The notes under the pieces: generated by a model
Told to the model about the DNA's origin: nothing
Databases searched by the model: none
What the model saw: the letters and a program-made list of their open reading frames with translations, nothing else
In this document: one piece after another, positions 13,873 through 57,735 of the stretch
How positions within the stretch are numbered: the stretch's first letter is position 1
Layout: every line of letters begins with the position of its first letter
Translations under genes and position numbers: made by a program
Origin: Chitinophagaceae bacterium
Lineage (GTDB): Bacteria; Bacteroidota; Bacteroidia; Chitinophagales; Chitinophagaceae
Assembly (NCBI GenBank): GCA_947447825.1
Contig: CANFLL010000004.1
Span: 1 to 64,000 of the forward strand
Direction of reading: 5' to 3'
DNA length: 64,000 nucleotides

Positions 13873-13955
13873 GGGCTGTTATTTATAACTTCTTTTTTAA
13901 AGTAATATTAAAGACATAAATTTGTAACCCTTGTGTAAGGTTAAACAGGTTGGTT

Positions 13956-15188
13956 ATGAGTGATTATTTAACATTGGCAGAAGCTTCAGAATTTATAGGG
14001 AAGAGTAAGGAAACCCTAAGACGTTGGGATAGAGAAGGAAAGCTAAATGCTGTCCGTGAACCAATGAGCAACTATAGGGTTTACAGAAAAGCAGAAGTAT
14101 TGTCTTTGTTTTCTGACTTTGTTACGCCGGATATATCTGAATCTATTTCAAACTTTGTTCTTCCCGATCACGGATATACTGTATTGGAGTTGTTTGCAGG
14201 TGCTGGAGGGCTAGCTGTAGGAATAGAAAAAGCAGGATTGAAATGTGTTGCACTAAATGAATTGGACAAATGGGCTTGTCAAACTCTTCGGAATAATCGA
14301 CCGAATTGGAAGGTGTTGGAGGGAGATATAAAGTCCTTCAATTTTGAAGAATACCATAATAAGGTAGATGTCGTAACTGGTGGATTTCCTTGTCAGGCAT
14401 TTAGTTATGCAGGCAAAAAGTTAGGATTGGCAGATGCGCGAGGCACCTTGTTTTATGAGTTTGCACGTGTAGTGAAAGAGGTTAACCCACCAATATGTAT
14501 TGGTGAGAATGTACGTGGGTTATTGAGTCATGAAAATGGAAAAACATTGCAGGGTATGGTTTCTATATTGGACGAGATAGGTTATAATGTTGTTCCTGTT
14601 CAGGTATTAAAAGCTATTAACTATAAAGTTCCCCAAAAACGGGAACGATTAATCTTGGTAGGAATTAGAAAAGATATTGGCTTAAAATACGAATATCCTA
14701 AGCCTTATAAAATGATTTATAACCTAAAGGATGCCCTTAAAAAAGGCGAGCTATTTGATACAGATGTTCCATTGTCCGAAGGTGTAAAGTATCCTAAGAG
14801 CAAAAAAGACGTGTTAGACTTGGTGCCACCAAAAGGATATTGGAGAGACCTTCCATTACATATTCAGAAAGAATTTATGGGGGGAAGTTTTCACCTTGGT
14901 GGAGGTAAGACAGGTATTGCTAGAAGGATTGGATGGGACGAGCCTTGCCTTACCCTAACTTGTAGTCCTGCCCAAAAACAAACAGAACGTTGCCATCCAG
15001 ATGAAACAAGACCTTTTACAGTAAGGGAATACGCCCGCATACAAACCTTTCCCGACGATTGGCAGTTTCATGGTTCAATGGCTCAACAATACAAACAAAT
15101 AGGAAATGCCGTTCCTGTAAACTTAGGAAGGGAGGTTGGTTATTCTATTATCCAGTTTTTAAATGAATACTATAAGATTAAAAAGTAA
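13956..15188 (+). CDS. DNA (cytosine-5) methyltransferase with N-terminal MerR-like helix-turn-helix
   Basis: Modification enzyme of a type II restriction-modification system. The track ORF opens at a TTG; the ATG at 13956 gives 410 residues. Residues about 1-55 form an excisionase/MerR-like DNA-binding fold (YLTLAEASEFIGKSKETLRR, then KAEVLSLF). The m5C domain follows with motif I (VLELFAGAGGLAVGIE), the catalytic PCQ loop (GGFPCQAFSYAG), ENV (CIGENVRGLL), the VPQKRERLILVG motif and motif X (QIGNAVPVNLG). The DNA-binding head suggests it may bind its own promoter to set expression. The next gene is convergent and overlaps its 3' end by 11 bases. Confidence 0.93.
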   Translation: MSDYLTLAEASEFIGKSKETLRRWDREGKLNAVREPMSNYRVYRKAEVLSLFSDFVTPDISESISNFVLPDHGYTVLELFAGAGGLAVGIEKAGLKCVALNELDKWACQTLRNNRPNWKVLEGDIKSFNFEEYHNKVDVVTGGFPCQAFSYAGKKLGLADARGTLFYEFARVVKEVNPPICIGENVRGLLSHENGKTLQGMVSILDEIGYNVVPVQVLKAINYKVPQKRERLILVGIRKDIGLKYEYPKPYKMIYNLKDALKKGELFDTDVPLSEGVKYPKSKKDVLDLVPPKGYWRDLPLHIQKEFMGGSFHLGGGKTGIARRIGWDEPCLTLTCSPAQKQTERCHPDETRPFTVREYARIQTFPDDWQFHGSMAQQYKQIGNAVPVNLGREVGYSIIQFLNEYYKIKK

Positions 15189-15891
15189 ATAATGGTGAGG
15201 TTCTTATCTCATTAGCTAAATCACTACATCCTTTTTCAAAGAAATCTTGTGTATCAAGTTCCAAGATACTTAGATTCAGTGCTACAACAAGTTGATCATA
15301 GAACCTAATATATCCAGTTACCCTATGCCAAAAATCCCTACCTATCAGTACGGGATGGGCGGCATCTATTTTTCTGTAATGCATACTCAATTCAGATGGC
15401 TCACCATATAAAACACCTACAATAAAGTCCGAATTGCTAATGCCAGATAGTGCCCTGTTAGTTCTAGCTAGGTTAATTGTGTCGGTAAACTTTTTGATAA
15501 GTGGGTTAACATCTTCCGAGTTAATAGTATTAGGGCCAGATTTCAATTGACACCATTTCTTTCTTGAATCAACTTTGTCTATAAACTCAATATCCATCCC
15601 CTTTATCATTGAACCTTCAGCAATGCCTAAATCAATGAACATACTTTGAATTCTTGTTCCAAAAGAAGTATTGATAGACGTACCAAGAACCCTAGGATAA
15701 TACAATGCTTTTGCAATTCCTTCTGGACTAAACTTTCCATCCAATACCTTTGACAAGTATTTTACTACGATTGGATTTATGTTGTAGGACTTTAGTTTAG
15801 AATGTGTTTTAAGTGAAGAATTGATATGTTGTTCAAAGATATTTTCTTTAAAATATCCCACAATCTTCAGCGTAAGTTCTTGTTCTGTCAT
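15178..15891 (-). CDS. Type II restriction endonuclease (PD-(D/E)xK fold) partner of the methyltransferase
   Basis: The 237-residue protein has a PD-(D/E)xK-like core: GMDIEFIDKVDSRKKWCQLKSGPNT, with Asp-Ile-Glu and Gln-x-Lys in the expected order at about residues 99-119. The upstream SINTSFGTRIQ segment is typical of small type II nucleases. It is tail-to-tail with the methyltransferase and overlaps it by 11 bases. I cannot assign a specific enzyme family or recognition sequence from memory with confidence. The nuclease role rests on the motif and on the adjacent methyltransferase. Confidence 0.8.
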   Translation of the reverse strand: MTEQELTLKIVGYFKENIFEQHINSSLKTHSKLKSYNINPIVVKYLSKVLDGKFSPEGIAKALYYPRVLGTSINTSFGTRIQSMFIDLGIAEGSMIKGMDIEFIDKVDSRKKWCQLKSGPNTINSEDVNPLIKKFTDTINLARTNRALSGISNSDFIVGVLYGEPSELSMHYRKIDAAHPVLIGRDFWHRVTGYIRFYDQLVVALNLSILELDTQDFFEKGCSDLANEIRTSPLFTF

Positions 15892-16221
15892 TCAATAAGG
15901 TTTAATTTATTTCCTCAAATATAGTTGGATATAACTGTTATCCTTACTTGTTTTTTCCGTCTTTGTTGGTGTTCCCCGATACCGCACGTCAAATCAGGGT
16001 GTCGCTGCCGCAAGTCTGTGACTTGTGGTATGTAAGCAAGTTCCCCTACATCTCTTACTTCTACCACTCTAATAAATTTTACAAAAAAGAGGTTCTCATA
16101 AGCTGATTTCAAACGGACACTCCTTTTTCTACTTCGTAAAGATGCAGATTTATTTTGTATAACAATAAAATAAAATTGTCACGATGTGTAAATGATTGGT
16201 GCTAGAGTTTATTCGGCAACT
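15892..16221. other. Gene-free stretch with type B repeat
   Basis: Between the nuclease and the next hairpin there is no supported gene. It contains the inverted type B repeat at 15976-16028. The 65-codon minus-strand ORF at 15915-16112 runs over this repeat and is not credible. Confidence 0.5.
15976..16028 (-). repeat. Island boundary repeat (type B), copy 3
   Basis: On the minus strand: CCACAAGTCACAGACTTGCGG, then CAGCGACACCCTGATTTGAC, then TGCGG. This is the type B order in reverse orientation to copy 2, so the restriction-modification pair is bracketed by inverted copies. Confidence 0.65.
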
Positions 16222-16254
16222 AACGCTATAAGGGCTTTGAGCCCTTATAGCGTT
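16222..16254. repeat. CTATAAGGGCT hairpin, left copy
   Basis: Perfect 15-base arms (AACGCTATAAGGGCT and its complement) enclose a 3-base loop, followed by TTTT. A related hairpin with the same CTATAAGGG core occurs at 17684-17719, on the other side of the beta-sandwich gene and its palindrome array. It could terminate transcripts; the paired placement suggests a module boundary. Confidence 0.7.
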
Positions 16255-16577
16255 TTGGTGTTTTGCGTATAGATGTGGTGAAGAACGCCAACTTCGACAA
16301 ATGGAAACACCGAAAGCTTCATGCTTTCTGGAAGATGCAATAACTCTCTTCCATCTCCCTCAAAAAACTATTTCAAATTTAATTAGGTTTTATCGAACTT
16401 TCCTTTGAACCTTCACCAGAATTAAAAACTGACTAATTACTAAAACATAAAACGTTGCTTTATGAACACATTAGTAGCTTACAAATTTCTTCTTTGCAAC
16501 GTCCGAAATAGCTGCTATTCAACGGCAGTAATCATTACACAGCTTCAACTAGATGGTTAAAAGGCTTTTTTGCTTCC

Positions 16578-16761
16578 AAGAACAATATCATTCTTAGTAA
16601 GAACAATATCATTCTTGGCAAAAACAATATCATTCTTAGTAAGAATGATATCATTCTTAGTAAGAACAATATCATTCTTGGTAAGAACAAATTCATTCTT
16701 GATAAGAACAATATCATTCTTGGCAAGAACAATATCCTTCTTGGTAAGAACAATATTCAGG
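16578..16761. repeat. 21-bp array A: palindromic AAGAAnnATATnnTTCTT units
   Basis: Eight full units and a partial ninth start at 16578, 16599, 16620, 16641, 16662, 16683, 16704, 16725 and 16746, exactly 21 bases apart. Each is an 18-base near-palindrome plus a 3-base spacer (AGT, GGC, GGT or GAT). The fourth unit, AAGAATGATATCATTCTT, is a perfect palindrome. The array ends 66 bases before the ATG at 16827. Because 21 is a multiple of three the array is open in several frames on both strands; those ORFs are artefacts. Confidence 0.95.
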
Positions 16762-16826
16762 AAGGGAAAAAGTAAATTGCAATTAACCTCTTTTACATAC
16801 TCGTTTAATCATTAAATTTAAAAAAA

Positions 16827-17495
16827 ATGTCAGACAACAAACCGCTTATACCATCAACAGATGACGGCAAACATGGTTTTTACATAGTTATTGTGCCATA
16901 CATAAATCTGGCTGCCAATCAATTGCGTTTCAATACGCCCGCAGGAATTCTTTCAGCAATGAACACCAATTATGGGCTTTGGAATCCAAATTGGTTAAAG
17001 TATAAGGATGTTTCTCAGTGCACAAAGCCAGTAATTGAATTAAAGGATAGCTTGGAAATTAAGCTTGACGGTAATATTGATGATGTTTATGGGGATATTC
17101 CCGATTCTGTTTTAACGGCCAACGACAAGGCTGTATTTTTAATTTATGCCCGTAAAGCGGCAAGTTCGGCTGTGGTTTCGCCCATAGCACCGGGTTTTGC
17201 AATGGATACTGCGGGTCATTTGTGGGCTAAGTTTCTATTTCACAACACCGCCACGCCTACTAGTAAGGGTGCGCCAACGGGCAATATTGTTTATTACGAA
17301 ACCTACATTGGTGCAGCGGGCATTGCCAATGCCGATGTGGTGTTTAGCAATGGAAACGTAACATCTTCATCAATACATACTTTTCATTTTGATGAAAGTC
17401 AGGTAGGAAAAACTTGTTACGTGCGCTGTTTTTATCAAACAAAAAAAGACGAACGTAGCCCTGCAAGCGTCATTCTTAGCTTTGTGATAATGTAG
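16827..17495 (+). CDS. Small leaderless beta-sandwich-like protein downstream of array A
   Basis: A 222-residue protein without signal peptide or membrane segment. It is beta-rich and ends in a fibronectin-III-like strand pattern (THTFHFDESQVGKTCYVRCF, then DERSPAS). The layout of that C-terminal strand block resembles the end of the two paralogues at 31278 and 56802 (HSLEI..., YVFKMAA..., RRNY.AP), but overall identity looks low. Function unknown. It is preceded by 21-bp array A and bracketed by two CTATAAGGG hairpins, which suggests a self-contained module of array plus gene. Confidence 0.75.
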   Translation: MSDNKPLIPSTDDGKHGFYIVIVPYINLAANQLRFNTPAGILSAMNTNYGLWNPNWLKYKDVSQCTKPVIELKDSLEIKLDGNIDDVYGDIPDSVLTANDKAVFLIYARKAASSAVVSPIAPGFAMDTAGHLWAKFLFHNTATPTSKGAPTGNIVYYETYIGAAGIANADVVFSNGNVTSSSIHTFHFDESQVGKTCYVRCFYQTKKDERSPASVILSFVIM

Positions 17496-17541: not shown

Positions 17542-17611
17542 CACACGTCAAATTAGAATGTGAAACGGACTTGCTGCTACCGCACGTTTCCTCACGTGTT
17601 GATTCGCTAAG
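17542..17611 (-). repeat. Island boundary repeat (type B), copy 4
   Basis: On the minus strand it begins CTTAGCGAATCAACACGTGA and then has GTGCGGTAGCAGCAAGTCCG and TAATTTGACGTG, colinear with copy 2 but more diverged. It lies after the 222-aa gene and directly before the first type R repeat. Confidence 0.55.
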
Positions 17612-17617
17612 ATGCTT

Positions 17618-17683: not shown

Positions 17684-17719
17684 AATCCTATAAGGGGCTG
17701 GCAGCCCTTATAGGATTTT
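17684..17719. repeat. CTATAAGGG hairpin, right copy
   Basis: Perfect 13-base arms AATCCTATAAGGG and CCCTTATAGGATT enclose an 8-base loop and are followed by TT. It shares the CTATAAGGGCT core with the hairpin at 16222-16254. Confidence 0.65.
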
Positions 17720-18578: not shown

Positions 18579-18589
18579 ACTAACTCCTT

Positions 18590-18648
18590 CTAGCTCATGA
18601 ATAACCCAACAGTGCAGTACTGCTCTAATATCGGGTGCTAGTTCATTA
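18590..18648 (+). repeat. Cassette-end repeat (type R), copy 2
   Basis: CTAGCTCATGAATAACCC, AGTGCAGTACTGCTC, then TCGGGTGCTAGTTCATTA. It contains the perfect dyad GCAGTACTGC, with outer CTAGC/GCTAG and CCC/GGG pairs. It begins 12 bases after the ankyrin gene stop, in the same orientation as the gene. Confidence 0.65.
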
Positions 18649-18724
18649 CTCCCGTTATGGACTGATTGGTTACTTGGTTTAGCATAAGTGAAATATAAAA
18701 TAAACCGCCCCACTCTGCAAAAGG

Positions 18725-31989: not shown

Positions 31990-32176
31990 ATTTACTTGAT
32001 GACGAAAACCAAAAACTTCATCACTTAATCGAAAAAGTTCATCATAAAAAACATTTTCTTCATCAAATAATTATGGAACTTCATCAAAAAAACCAAAAAC
32101 TTCATCAAGTATTTGGAAAACTTCATCAAGAAAGTCAAATACTTCATCACTTTTTTCAATTACTTGATGAAGTTTT
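31990..32176. repeat. 21-bp array B: CTTCATCA-phased units
   Basis: The octamer CTTCATCA (or GTTCATCA) sits at 32016, 32037, 32058, 32079, 32100, 32121 and 32142, exactly 21 apart. At the outer phases 31995 and 32163 it is CTTGATGA instead, so the two end units are inverted. Better units read ACTTnATnAAGT, a 12-base dyad. The spacer is A-rich and less conserved. Nine units. The array starts about 90 bases upstream of the 31278-31901 gene and is followed by the divergent gene at 32246. Confidence 0.92.
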
Positions 32177-39139: not shown

Positions 39140-40882
39140 ATGCACTCAAAACACCTCAAGCAACTCTGTCTCATTACTGTTCTACTATTAGGAAGTACGC
39201 TGTTGTCGGTGTTTTTAATTCTTTTATCCCTCGATAGAAATGAACTTATTGCGCATATCATCCGCCTAACCAATAAACCCTATTTGCTCAATCTATTATC
39301 TAATAAAATACTCACTCCGCAAAAGTTTACAATCCTAAGATACGGTTTGCAGGTCTCAATTATTCTTGATTGTATAACAATTGCCTTATTGTATCGTTTT
39401 AGAAATGGGGTATTGTCGTTACTGAATTTTATTTTTTCTACCATTAAAAATTGTTTTGGTGCTATCAGCCTTGCGCATAATACAAGAAAAGAAAATATAC
39501 TTCTACTCATCATACTGGCAATTGTATTTTTAAAAGGATTGTATTACATTCTATCATTCGATTTACAATATGATGAAATGTGGAGTTACAATTACTTCAC
39601 TTCTCGCCCCGTTTATCTTATTTTCTTTAGTTATAATAACTATCCGATTTACGAACTAAGTACGCACCTGTTTAAATGGCTGCCTTTTTCTATGAAGGTG
39701 AACCTACGATTACCCCCTTTTTTGATGGGGATATTTTGCATTTTCGTGTTATTTGGTTGCACAAAAAAGATTACGTCACACTTTCTCACCGCCCTTGCAA
39801 GCGTCGTATTATTTGCTTGCATGCCCGTTTCGGTGTTTTACATGTTGTATGCACGAGGGGTAATGTTCGAACTTTTCTTTGCCGTTACAGCATTTTTTAG
39901 TCTTGTATTTCTTGTAAAAACTCAGCAAAAGAAAAAGTATTTGTTTCTATATGTTGCCTCAAACGTGTTAGGAGCGTATTCCATGCCTACTCATTTGTAT
40001 TTCTGGGCAGTGTTTTCTTTGGTATCATTTCTTTATTTTATCCTTTATCAAAAATCAGTAATAAAGTCTATCTTACTAAGCAATTTTCTAATCCTAGCCT
40101 TAATCGTATTGTGTTATTTGCCAGTATTTTTTGGCTCTGGATTGTCGTTTGTTTTTGGTGCACTTACAGATACCTCTCAATCCACAAATCTATTTGCCAA
40201 CACAATTGCTTACACCAAAGGCATCAATAACTTCTTTACTGGCAATGTTTATGGTTTGGTAATTCTATCTTTTATGTCTTTTGTCTTTTTGTTTTTATAT
40301 AAAACAGCGGATTACAAATACCTATTTACATTGCTACTGGTTAACCTATTTATCTTTTTGCCAAGTATAATCTATCTATTTCAACGTGTATTTATCCCCG
40401 AAAGAGCTTTGGCTTTTATTGGCTTAGTAATTCCTTTTTTAGGATGCACGCTATTTTATTTTACAAAAAATTCTCTCAAACAATATCAACAGTATTGCAT
40501 TCTTGCAATTGTTTTTATTGCTGGTTGCGCCATCAGTCATCGGCATGAATACCTAAATTGGAGTGTTCAAAAAGACAAGGATGCCATTAAGCTTTCTACC
40601 CTTTTTTTAAAGAATAAAATAGAGACTTGCTATGATAATTCGCCCACTTCCGAGTTCTATTATTTCTATCCAGCTTTAGAATATTATTTTAGTCAGCAGA
40701 AAAAAACTATCAACTTTAATATGGCGGAACCTAATAGTCAGCGATATAAACCATTACTTTCCACAGATAATTTTGATTGCATTATAGATAGCATTTATGC
40801 CAATGAAGAACCAAGAAGAGTAAAGTATAAAAAGATATTTACTGATAATGCTTATGGATTTAAAGTGTGGCGGTTGAAATAA
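39140..40882 (+). CDS. GT-C fold membrane glycosyltransferase (family 39-like)
   Basis: A 580-residue polytopic membrane protein. The conserved DLQYDEMWSYNYFTSRP after the first long periplasmic loop is the acidic motif typical of PMT/ArnT-type transferases that use lipid-linked sugars. About 10-12 membrane segments follow, with a soluble C-terminus. Probably adds a sugar to an envelope glycan or protein; acceptor unknown. It is 5 bases downstream of the YfhO gene. The stop codon TAA at 40880-40882 lies at the first unit of 21-bp array D. Confidence 0.8.
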   Translation: MHSKHLKQLCLITVLLLGSTLLSVFLILLSLDRNELIAHIIRLTNKPYLLNLLSNKILTPQKFTILRYGLQVSIILDCITIALLYRFRNGVLSLLNFIFSTIKNCFGAISLAHNTRKENILLLIILAIVFLKGLYYILSFDLQYDEMWSYNYFTSRPVYLIFFSYNNYPIYELSTHLFKWLPFSMKVNLRLPPFLMGIFCIFVLFGCTKKITSHFLTALASVVLFACMPVSVFYMLYARGVMFELFFAVTAFFSLVFLVKTQQKKKYLFLYVASNVLGAYSMPTHLYFWAVFSLVSFLYFILYQKSVIKSILLSNFLILALIVLCYLPVFFGSGLSFVFGALTDTSQSTNLFANTIAYTKGINNFFTGNVYGLVILSFMSFVFLFLYKTADYKYLFTLLLVNLFIFLPSIIYLFQRVFIPERALAFIGLVIPFLGCTLFYFTKNSLKQYQQYCILAIVFIAGCAISHRHEYLNWSVQKDKDAIKLSTLFLKNKIETCYDNSPTSEFYYFYPALEYYFSQQKKTINFNMAEPNSQRYKPLLSTDNFDCIIDSIYANEEPRRVKYKKIFTDNAYGFKVWRLK

Positions 40883-41142
40883 GGCTAACCAAATGCGACA
40901 AAAGCCTAAGCAAATGCCGCATAAGGTTGAACAAATATGATATAAGGTTAACCAAATGCGACAAAAGCCTAAGCAAATGCCGCATAAGGTTGAACAAATA
41001 TGATATAAGGTTAACCAAATGCGACGAAAGGCTTCCCAAATGCCGCATAAGGTTGAACAAATGCGACAAAAGTTTAGCCTAATGCCACATAATGTTAACC
41101 TAATGCCACATAAGGTTAGCCCAATACGACACACCTTTGAAC
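40881..41142. repeat. 21-bp array D: AAGGTTAACCAAATGC units with 63-bp super-repeat
   Basis: Twelve units and a degenerate thirteenth start at 40881, 40902, 40923, 40944, 40965, 40986, 41007, 41028, 41049, 41070, 41091, 41112 and 41133, exactly 21 apart. The unit head varies around AAGGTTAACC (GGTTAACC is a dyad); the tail alternates AAATGCGACAA, AAATGCCGCAT and AAATATGATAT. The first seven units form a 63-bp super-repeat. It lies between convergent genes and overlaps the stop codon of the left one. The four ORFs in the track over it are artefacts of the period. Confidence 0.95.
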
Positions 41143-45979: not shown

Positions 45980-46222
45980 GAACCGGTTGAACATGTTTAA
46001 AAAAAGCTTTTTTAGCGTAATGTTCAGTTGAACGAGGTTTGCGTGAGGGCTTACGAAACTTCCGTTCAACTGAACTTATCTTCCGTGAGGGCTTACCGAG
46101 TTTCCGTTCAGCCGAACGAGGTTTCCGTAAAGGCTTACGGAACTTCCGTACGACTGAACATTTCCTCCGTAAGAGCTTACCGAACTTCCGTTCAATTGAA
46201 CTTATCTTCCGAAAGGCAGTAT
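45980..46222. repeat. 21-bp array E: alternating GTTCAnnTGAAC and GTAAGnnCTTAC palindromes
   Basis: Units start at 45980, 46001, 46022, 46043, 46064, 46085, 46106, 46127, 46148, 46169, 46190 and 46211, exactly 21 apart. From 46022 two palindrome types mostly alternate: GTTCAATTGAAC-like and GTAAGAGCTTAC-like, each followed by a 9-base spacer of the kind GAGGTTTCC or TTATCTTCC. The first two positions (GAACCGGTTGAA and AAAAAGCTTTTT) keep the phase and a dyad but differ in sequence. It lies between tyrS and the DUF4834 gene. The two plus-strand track ORFs over it are artefacts. Confidence 0.95.
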
Positions 46223-57532: not shown

Positions 57533-57735
57533 ATAATCACCAATATTATCAATATCTGTATCAAGATTATCATAATCGGTATACCGATGGAAACAATCTG
57601 TATAAAGATTGCCATCATCTGTATACAGATAGTCACCATATTCATACAGATGATGGCAATCGGTTGAAAGATATTGATGATATTGATACCGATTATCGCC
57701 ATCGGTATGAAGATATCCATAATCGGTAAGCCGAT
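57533..57735. repeat. 21-bp array C: ATCGGTATACCGAT units
   Basis: Nine clear units begin at 57554, 57575, 57596, 57617, 57638, 57659, 57680, 57701 and 57722, exactly 21 apart, plus a degenerate one at 57533. The unit is a 14-base dyad of the kind ATCGGTATACCGAT or ATCTGTATACAGAT (both perfect palindromes), plus a 7-base spacer. Its inner edge lies 111 bases from the 56802-57422 gene. The track ORF at 57496-57720 is an artefact. Confidence 0.95.

Follow-up and report, generated by a model that had tools for sequence, protein, structure and literature searches.

Array A of a Chitinophagaceae bacterium belongs to a set of intergenic 21-bp minisatellites found throughout its genus

Array A, a tandem palindromic repeat in a window of 64,000 nucleotides from a Chitinophagaceae bacterium (contig CANFLL010000004.1 of assembly GCA_947447825.1), is one member of a genus-wide, noncoding and intergenic minisatellite system whose sequence is not conserved. 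No description of these arrays was found in the literature searched. The patterns detected are best read as minisatellites acting at the level of DNA, their dyads phased by two helical turns; an architectural nature is plausible, and so is a merely mutational one. A putative architectural or topological role is favored, with a probability of about 0.45, and a purely mutational origin is a serious contender. The original prediction, made from the letters of the window, of an array of palindromic units was confirmed, and its reading as units that could fold into hairpins was partly supported.

Results

Array A extends from 16578 to 16756 (no strand is assigned to it or to the other arrays and flanking motifs below), with a period of 21 bp, 8.5 copies, 87% matches, 0% indels and a TRF score of 274. 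TRF, the unit listing and the dyad test together resolve it into eight full units and one broken copy, with the consensus AAGAACAATATCATTCTTGGT. The ninth unit is interrupted after AAGAACAATATT, so that the array predicted to reach 16761 is real but its end lies nearer 16756, the earlier figure overshooting by a few bases. The sole perfectly palindromic unit, AAGAATGATATCATTCTT at 16641-16658, forms 9/9 pairs, while six of the remaining seven full units form 7/9 and one (16620) forms 6/9. Mean pairing across the dyad was 0.79 compared with 0.59 ± 0.07 for column-permuted copies (p = 0.02), bearing out the prediction of a 21-bp array with 18-bp palindromes, one of them perfect. C6 and A7, numbered within the unit, had been described as recurring in most units and do so in 7 of 8 full units, i.e. 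all except the one at 16641. They lie opposite A13 and C12, where the + strand has mismatches (C.A and A.C) and the - strand has wobbles (U.G and G.U).

Predicted folding of array A goes far beyond that of dinucleotide shuffles, as RNA for the + strand (-59.8 kcal/mol, z -9.0) and the - strand (-78.2 kcal/mol, z -11.7) and also as DNA (z -8.6 and -8.8). The original prediction held that either strand could form a run of hairpins; the optimal RNA fold of both strands is instead one long rod in which array A folds back to pair with itself. The two strands also differ, since C6/A7 make C.A mismatches on the + strand and G.U pairs on the - strand. In the RNA folds the rod is closed by CTTCC immediately left of the array (16573-16577) and the complementary GGAAG immediately right of it (16760-16764). 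CAGGAAGG occurs to the right of the sister array on contig C148 too, and terminal complementarity over all arrays was slightly raised (11.39 vs 10.29 ± 0.25). An Rfam search of array A gave nothing near gathering score, only sub-threshold microRNA-type and thermometer matches on the repeat.

The slot occupied by array A lies between a 32-aa small ORF on the + strand (16462-16560; MNTLVAYKFLLCNVRNSCYSTAVIITQLQLDG, ending ..RNSCYSTAVIITQLQLDG), which stops 17 nt before the array, and a + strand gene for a 222-aa protein (16827-17495) that is conserved in the genus and has no family match. The small ORF had no NCBIfam match; its DNA block is 73–90% conserved among sister species, where the reading frame is recognizable, and a degenerate copy (CTATTCAATAGCAGTAATGGTTACACAG) precedes another array at G006:C129. 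Also near the slot are a hairpin, CTATAAGGGCT..AGCCCTTATAG, that is present twice (16229-16256 and 17689-17717) and resembles a dispersed terminator-type element, short dispersed repeats at about 15972-16067, 17544-17613 and 18587-18675 that match many contigs of the genus, and at 13950-15891 a Type II restriction-modification pair consisting of a C5-cytosine methylase with a MerR/HTH-like N-terminus and an EcoO109I-like endonuclease.

Array A is accompanied in the window by further arrays. TRF detected a 21-bp array at 32005-32149, in a divergent intergenic region, in each unit of which a core of 9 bp, ACTTCATCA, is fixed and the other 12 bases vary; either strand can be read as leucine heptads, and coding evidence for the array was not found. 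A convergent intergenic region holds a 21/63-bp array at 40875-41131 (dyad p 0.03; 92–93% conserved in genome G004), followed by a 21/42/84-bp array of alternating palindromes at 46022-46216 (93% conserved in G004, 74% in G003) and, again by TRF, a short degenerate 21-bp array at 57541-57630 (91% conserved in G004).

Within the approximately 0.9 Mb of the same genome on which counts are based, a period of 21, 22 or 42 was present in 64 of 108 tandem arrays, those of the system lying almost wholly in intergenic DNA and belonging to many sequence families; the density of about 7 per 100 kb extrapolates to about 330 arrays. Other sampled genomes of the genus (0.8 Mb for G004) had 6–20 arrays per 100 kb, with the top densities coming from small loci chosen for family A matches, while other genera had 0–1.3 per 100 kb except for one 34-kb sample with two 2-copy matches. 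Arrays across the genus are roughly 100–340 bp long, and some have 22-bp or mixed 21/22 periods. The genus genomes are drafts, at least one of them assembled from a metagenome; gene prediction followed simple ORF rules, and TRF thresholds disfavor degenerate arrays and indels. Autocorrelation, which compares noncoding DNA with a copy of itself shifted by a given lag, has no detection threshold, and at lag 21 it gave z = 15, 17 and 8.6 in G000, G004 and G007 compared with at most 2.7 in six other genera; in the genus the signal partly remained after detected arrays were masked. Lags 7 and 14 were likewise in excess in the genus, as were intergenic arrays of 7- or 14-bp units (e.g. L023:2057-2094, L042:4827-4926 and L065:14369-14565). 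When 98 genomes from 97 genera of Chitinophagaceae were sampled, three contained the family A sequence itself: two belong to this genus, and the third, outside it, gave a weak 37-bp match. A phage or plasmid origin was rejected, array A having no match in phages, plasmids or viral contigs.

Palindromic units were detected in 57 of 114 noncoding arrays at p<=0.05, where about 6 would be expected, and in 32 of 114 at p<=0.01 (an earlier, smaller run gave 32/68 at p<=0.05), and the other half of the noncoding arrays fails the dyad test. Compensation is visible in units of locus L052, where CTGTACAG is replaced by CTCTAGAG. In the family A set of 60 distinct units from 11 arrays in 5 genomes, standard pairs made up 72.6% of cells compared with 70.1 ± 1.2% after partner shuffling and 33–55% with the dyad shifted by 1–3 columns. 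Both-sided changes numbered 33 compared with 25.3 ± 3.4 after the same shuffling, and each of the two observed values was reached in 11 of 500 shuffles. Thus changes in the relatives, among which the original prediction proposed to look for compensation, do not break the dyad at random, but covariation within family A is modest. Dyad pairing in family A is undiminished at the center, where a hairpin loop would sit. Although 515 of 527 units stay in register, the scarcity of indels was dropped as proof of phase selection because arrays of other periods give the same ratio under TRF and the pattern may be a product of TRF selection. Strong curvature was also rejected, predicted curvature being barely above that of dinucleotide shuffles (mean z 0.32, SE 0.12).

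Nearly all arrays are intergenic and without orientation preference, their gene flanks being 38 tandem, 13 divergent and 8 convergent compared with 188, 63 and 40 for background gaps; a terminator or promoter function was rejected because flanking orientation is the same as background. In the one genome assessed for spacing (G004, 33 intervals), arrays were more even than a random pick of intergenic gaps (CV 0.61 vs 0.84 ± 0.10, p = 0.008).

Slot comparisons cover few loci, among them the slot of array A and the kdpC-kdpD gap, and at these two most sister species have a differing 21-bp array that is usually dyad-symmetric. The flanks of the array A slot are 86–90% identical in G004, and the slot in G004, in G006 and at two paralogous loci of G010 contains 21-bp arrays of other sequence (TCATCTTGGTAAAAGGACACG, CAAATAAAATATTTGATACAC, AATTTGAAATCCTAAATTGGC and TCAAAAAGTAATTACTTCCTA). 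BLAST between the window and G004 showed no array similarity at this slot; a short stretch, ATATCAT-CTTGGTAA, is matchable by eye between the two arrays, which leaves room for in-place divergence. Array A of the window is 92% identical to the C148 array, and its counterpart in the G004 slot clusters with arrays from elsewhere in G004.

Tandem repeats occur between kdpC and kdpD in ten genomes of the genus (one degenerate and below TRF detection, one with 1–2 units). Those of G000 and G006 are related in sequence, and those of G004, G001/G010, G003, G002, G009 and G011 have other sequences. At the same site G010 has 1–2 units and G001 has 11, a difference of 210 bp or ten units, and in G008 kdpC and kdpD overlap and the array is absent; given this and its near loss in G010, the array is dispensable at the site. 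The kdpC-kdpD arrays of G003 and G009 (L208 and L211) end in an inverted unit that makes a terminal hairpin (CTCCTAGAATcATTCTAGGAG in G009), and those of G001/G010 are bracketed by GACGG..CCGTC. Among the other slots, sequences have diverged with lengths equal at L058/L200 and L060/L185, and sequences are similar with lengths differing at L021/L024, L053/L170 and L162/L160; copy number at shared slots changes by whole units. In all, 94 arrays fell into 59 families, of which 19 comprise two or more arrays when orthologous pairs are counted, and unrelated slots can hold arrays of one family.

Discussion

Slots are kept in related species with different sequences, which points to the form of the DNA or its turnover, rather than its letters, as the thing to be explained. 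The constant features are the 21-bp period, i.e. two turns of B-DNA, the length of roughly 100–340 bp and, for half of the arrays or more, dyad symmetry of the unit. Slippage together with ectopic copying or conversion may be the engine of turnover, and what is retained would then be a property of the double helix, namely its two-turn phase and dyads. Dyads two turns apart would all lie on one face of the DNA, which would suit a putative dimeric architectural DNA-binding protein of low specificity; another putative role is the absorption of supercoiling through hairpin extrusion, with an array about every 13.5 kb. A bolder version is doubtful, namely that slots about every 13.5 kb constitute a sequence-independent signal of chromosomal architecture, kept purely for 21-bp phase and dyads while exchange between slots rewrites the letters.

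The mutational alternative, which may quite possibly be correct, is that a genus-specific bias in slippage or recombination makes and spreads 21-bp repeats, that palindromic units gain from the slippage their hairpins promote, and that selection merely excludes the repeats from genes. Intergenic placement with background gene orientation, shifts in copy number by whole units, and the near loss of the kdpC-kdpD array in one species and its absence from another are all consistent with this, and the excess at lags 7 and 14 agrees with the idea of heptanucleotide slippage, attributed to Mrazek et al. 2007 in PMC4679880. This would not account clearly for a period of 21 (or 42 or 63) instead of 28 or 35, for non-palindromic arrays with the same period, or for the even spacing, and the same slots have been retained over large divergence. 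An architectural role is placed ahead, tentatively. A function as RNA, with hairpins or long rods in array transcripts stabilizing, terminating or sequestering mRNA, is unlikely in spite of the very strong predicted folding of both strands and the position of arrays inside an operon (kdpC-kdpD) and between the small ORF and the downstream gene. G.U pairs, which a structured RNA should tolerate on the transcribed strand, are not enriched there in tandem contexts (159 vs 151), and the co-directional strand, both in the kdp operon and upstream of the gene at 16827, is the one with C.A mismatches. In addition, arrays have no orientation bias, the array center is as symmetric as the stem, and Rfam offered no match near gathering score. 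The wobble counts, the undiminished pairing at the center and the lack of orientation preference likewise leave the folded-strand or hairpin reading of the original prediction not favored.

Two further explanations have very little probability. Movement of REP/BIME-like elements by a Y1 (RAYT) transposase would fit palindromic, intergenic families at several loci, and the genome of the window has 5 Y1_Tnp matches, but such matches also occur in G013 (1), G014 (1), G024 (9) and G031 (5), and the samples of G013, G014 and G024 contained no arrays; Y1_Tnp numbers do not follow the arrays, and a link with the transposase is doubtful. The arrays are, moreover, strictly head-to-tail at 21 bp with dozens of unrelated families, and single copies of unit A were not found in the genome of the window. 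Even less credible is the idea that array A encodes a heptapeptide-repeat protein (21 bp being seven codons; KNNIILG), even though the coding frame is open through the array and an in-frame ATG or TTG is present in some of the sister arrays. The frame in the window has no ATG, GTG or TTG start, 22-bp arrays exist, and slots are conserved while their peptides are unrelated; since at least one open frame was present in 81 of 101 arrays compared with 79.2 expected from column permutation, open frames are no commoner than chance and coding was rejected.

The arrays are a clean natural case in which sister species share the position, period and symmetry of repeats but not their letters, so that selection acting on the form of DNA can be told apart from selection acting on its sequence. 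They could reveal an element of the bacterial nucleoid or of supercoiling, or alternatively a mutational bias that is peculiar to the genus and works in steps of two turns.

Comparison with known repeat systems

REP, BIME and REPIN elements are short intergenic palindromes, many per genome, with proposed roles in supercoiling or mRNA stability (PMC3733652, PMC3116915). The present arrays resemble them in having palindromic intergenic units and families at many loci, but differ in a fixed 21-bp head-to-tail period and dozens of unrelated families per genome; where REP/BIME elements are scattered singly or in pairs and share a few families, family A was found only as arrays in the genome of the window, and 94 arrays comprise 59 families. 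Intergenic heptamer direct repeats are reported from Beggiatoaceae, Cyanobacteria and some Bacteroidetes, with mainly one heptamer (TAACTGA), which in the genome of the Guaymas Maribeggiatoa usually lies directly ahead of a start codon (PMC4679880). These are similarly tandem, intergenic and patchy among lineages, and 7- and 14-bp arrays exist in this genus too, but the 21-bp dyads described here have many different sequences and show no preference for a position relative to genes. CRISPR arrays also have tandem, partly palindromic repeats, but array A is without spacers or repeat-spacer alternation, its units being adjacent with a variable junction of only 3 bp. With bacterial VNTR minisatellites the arrays share head-to-tail units and whole-unit copy variation at a fixed site, as between G010 and G001 at kdp; unlike ordinary VNTRs, they have one dominant period across genome and genus, dyads, and slots shared among species with different sequence.
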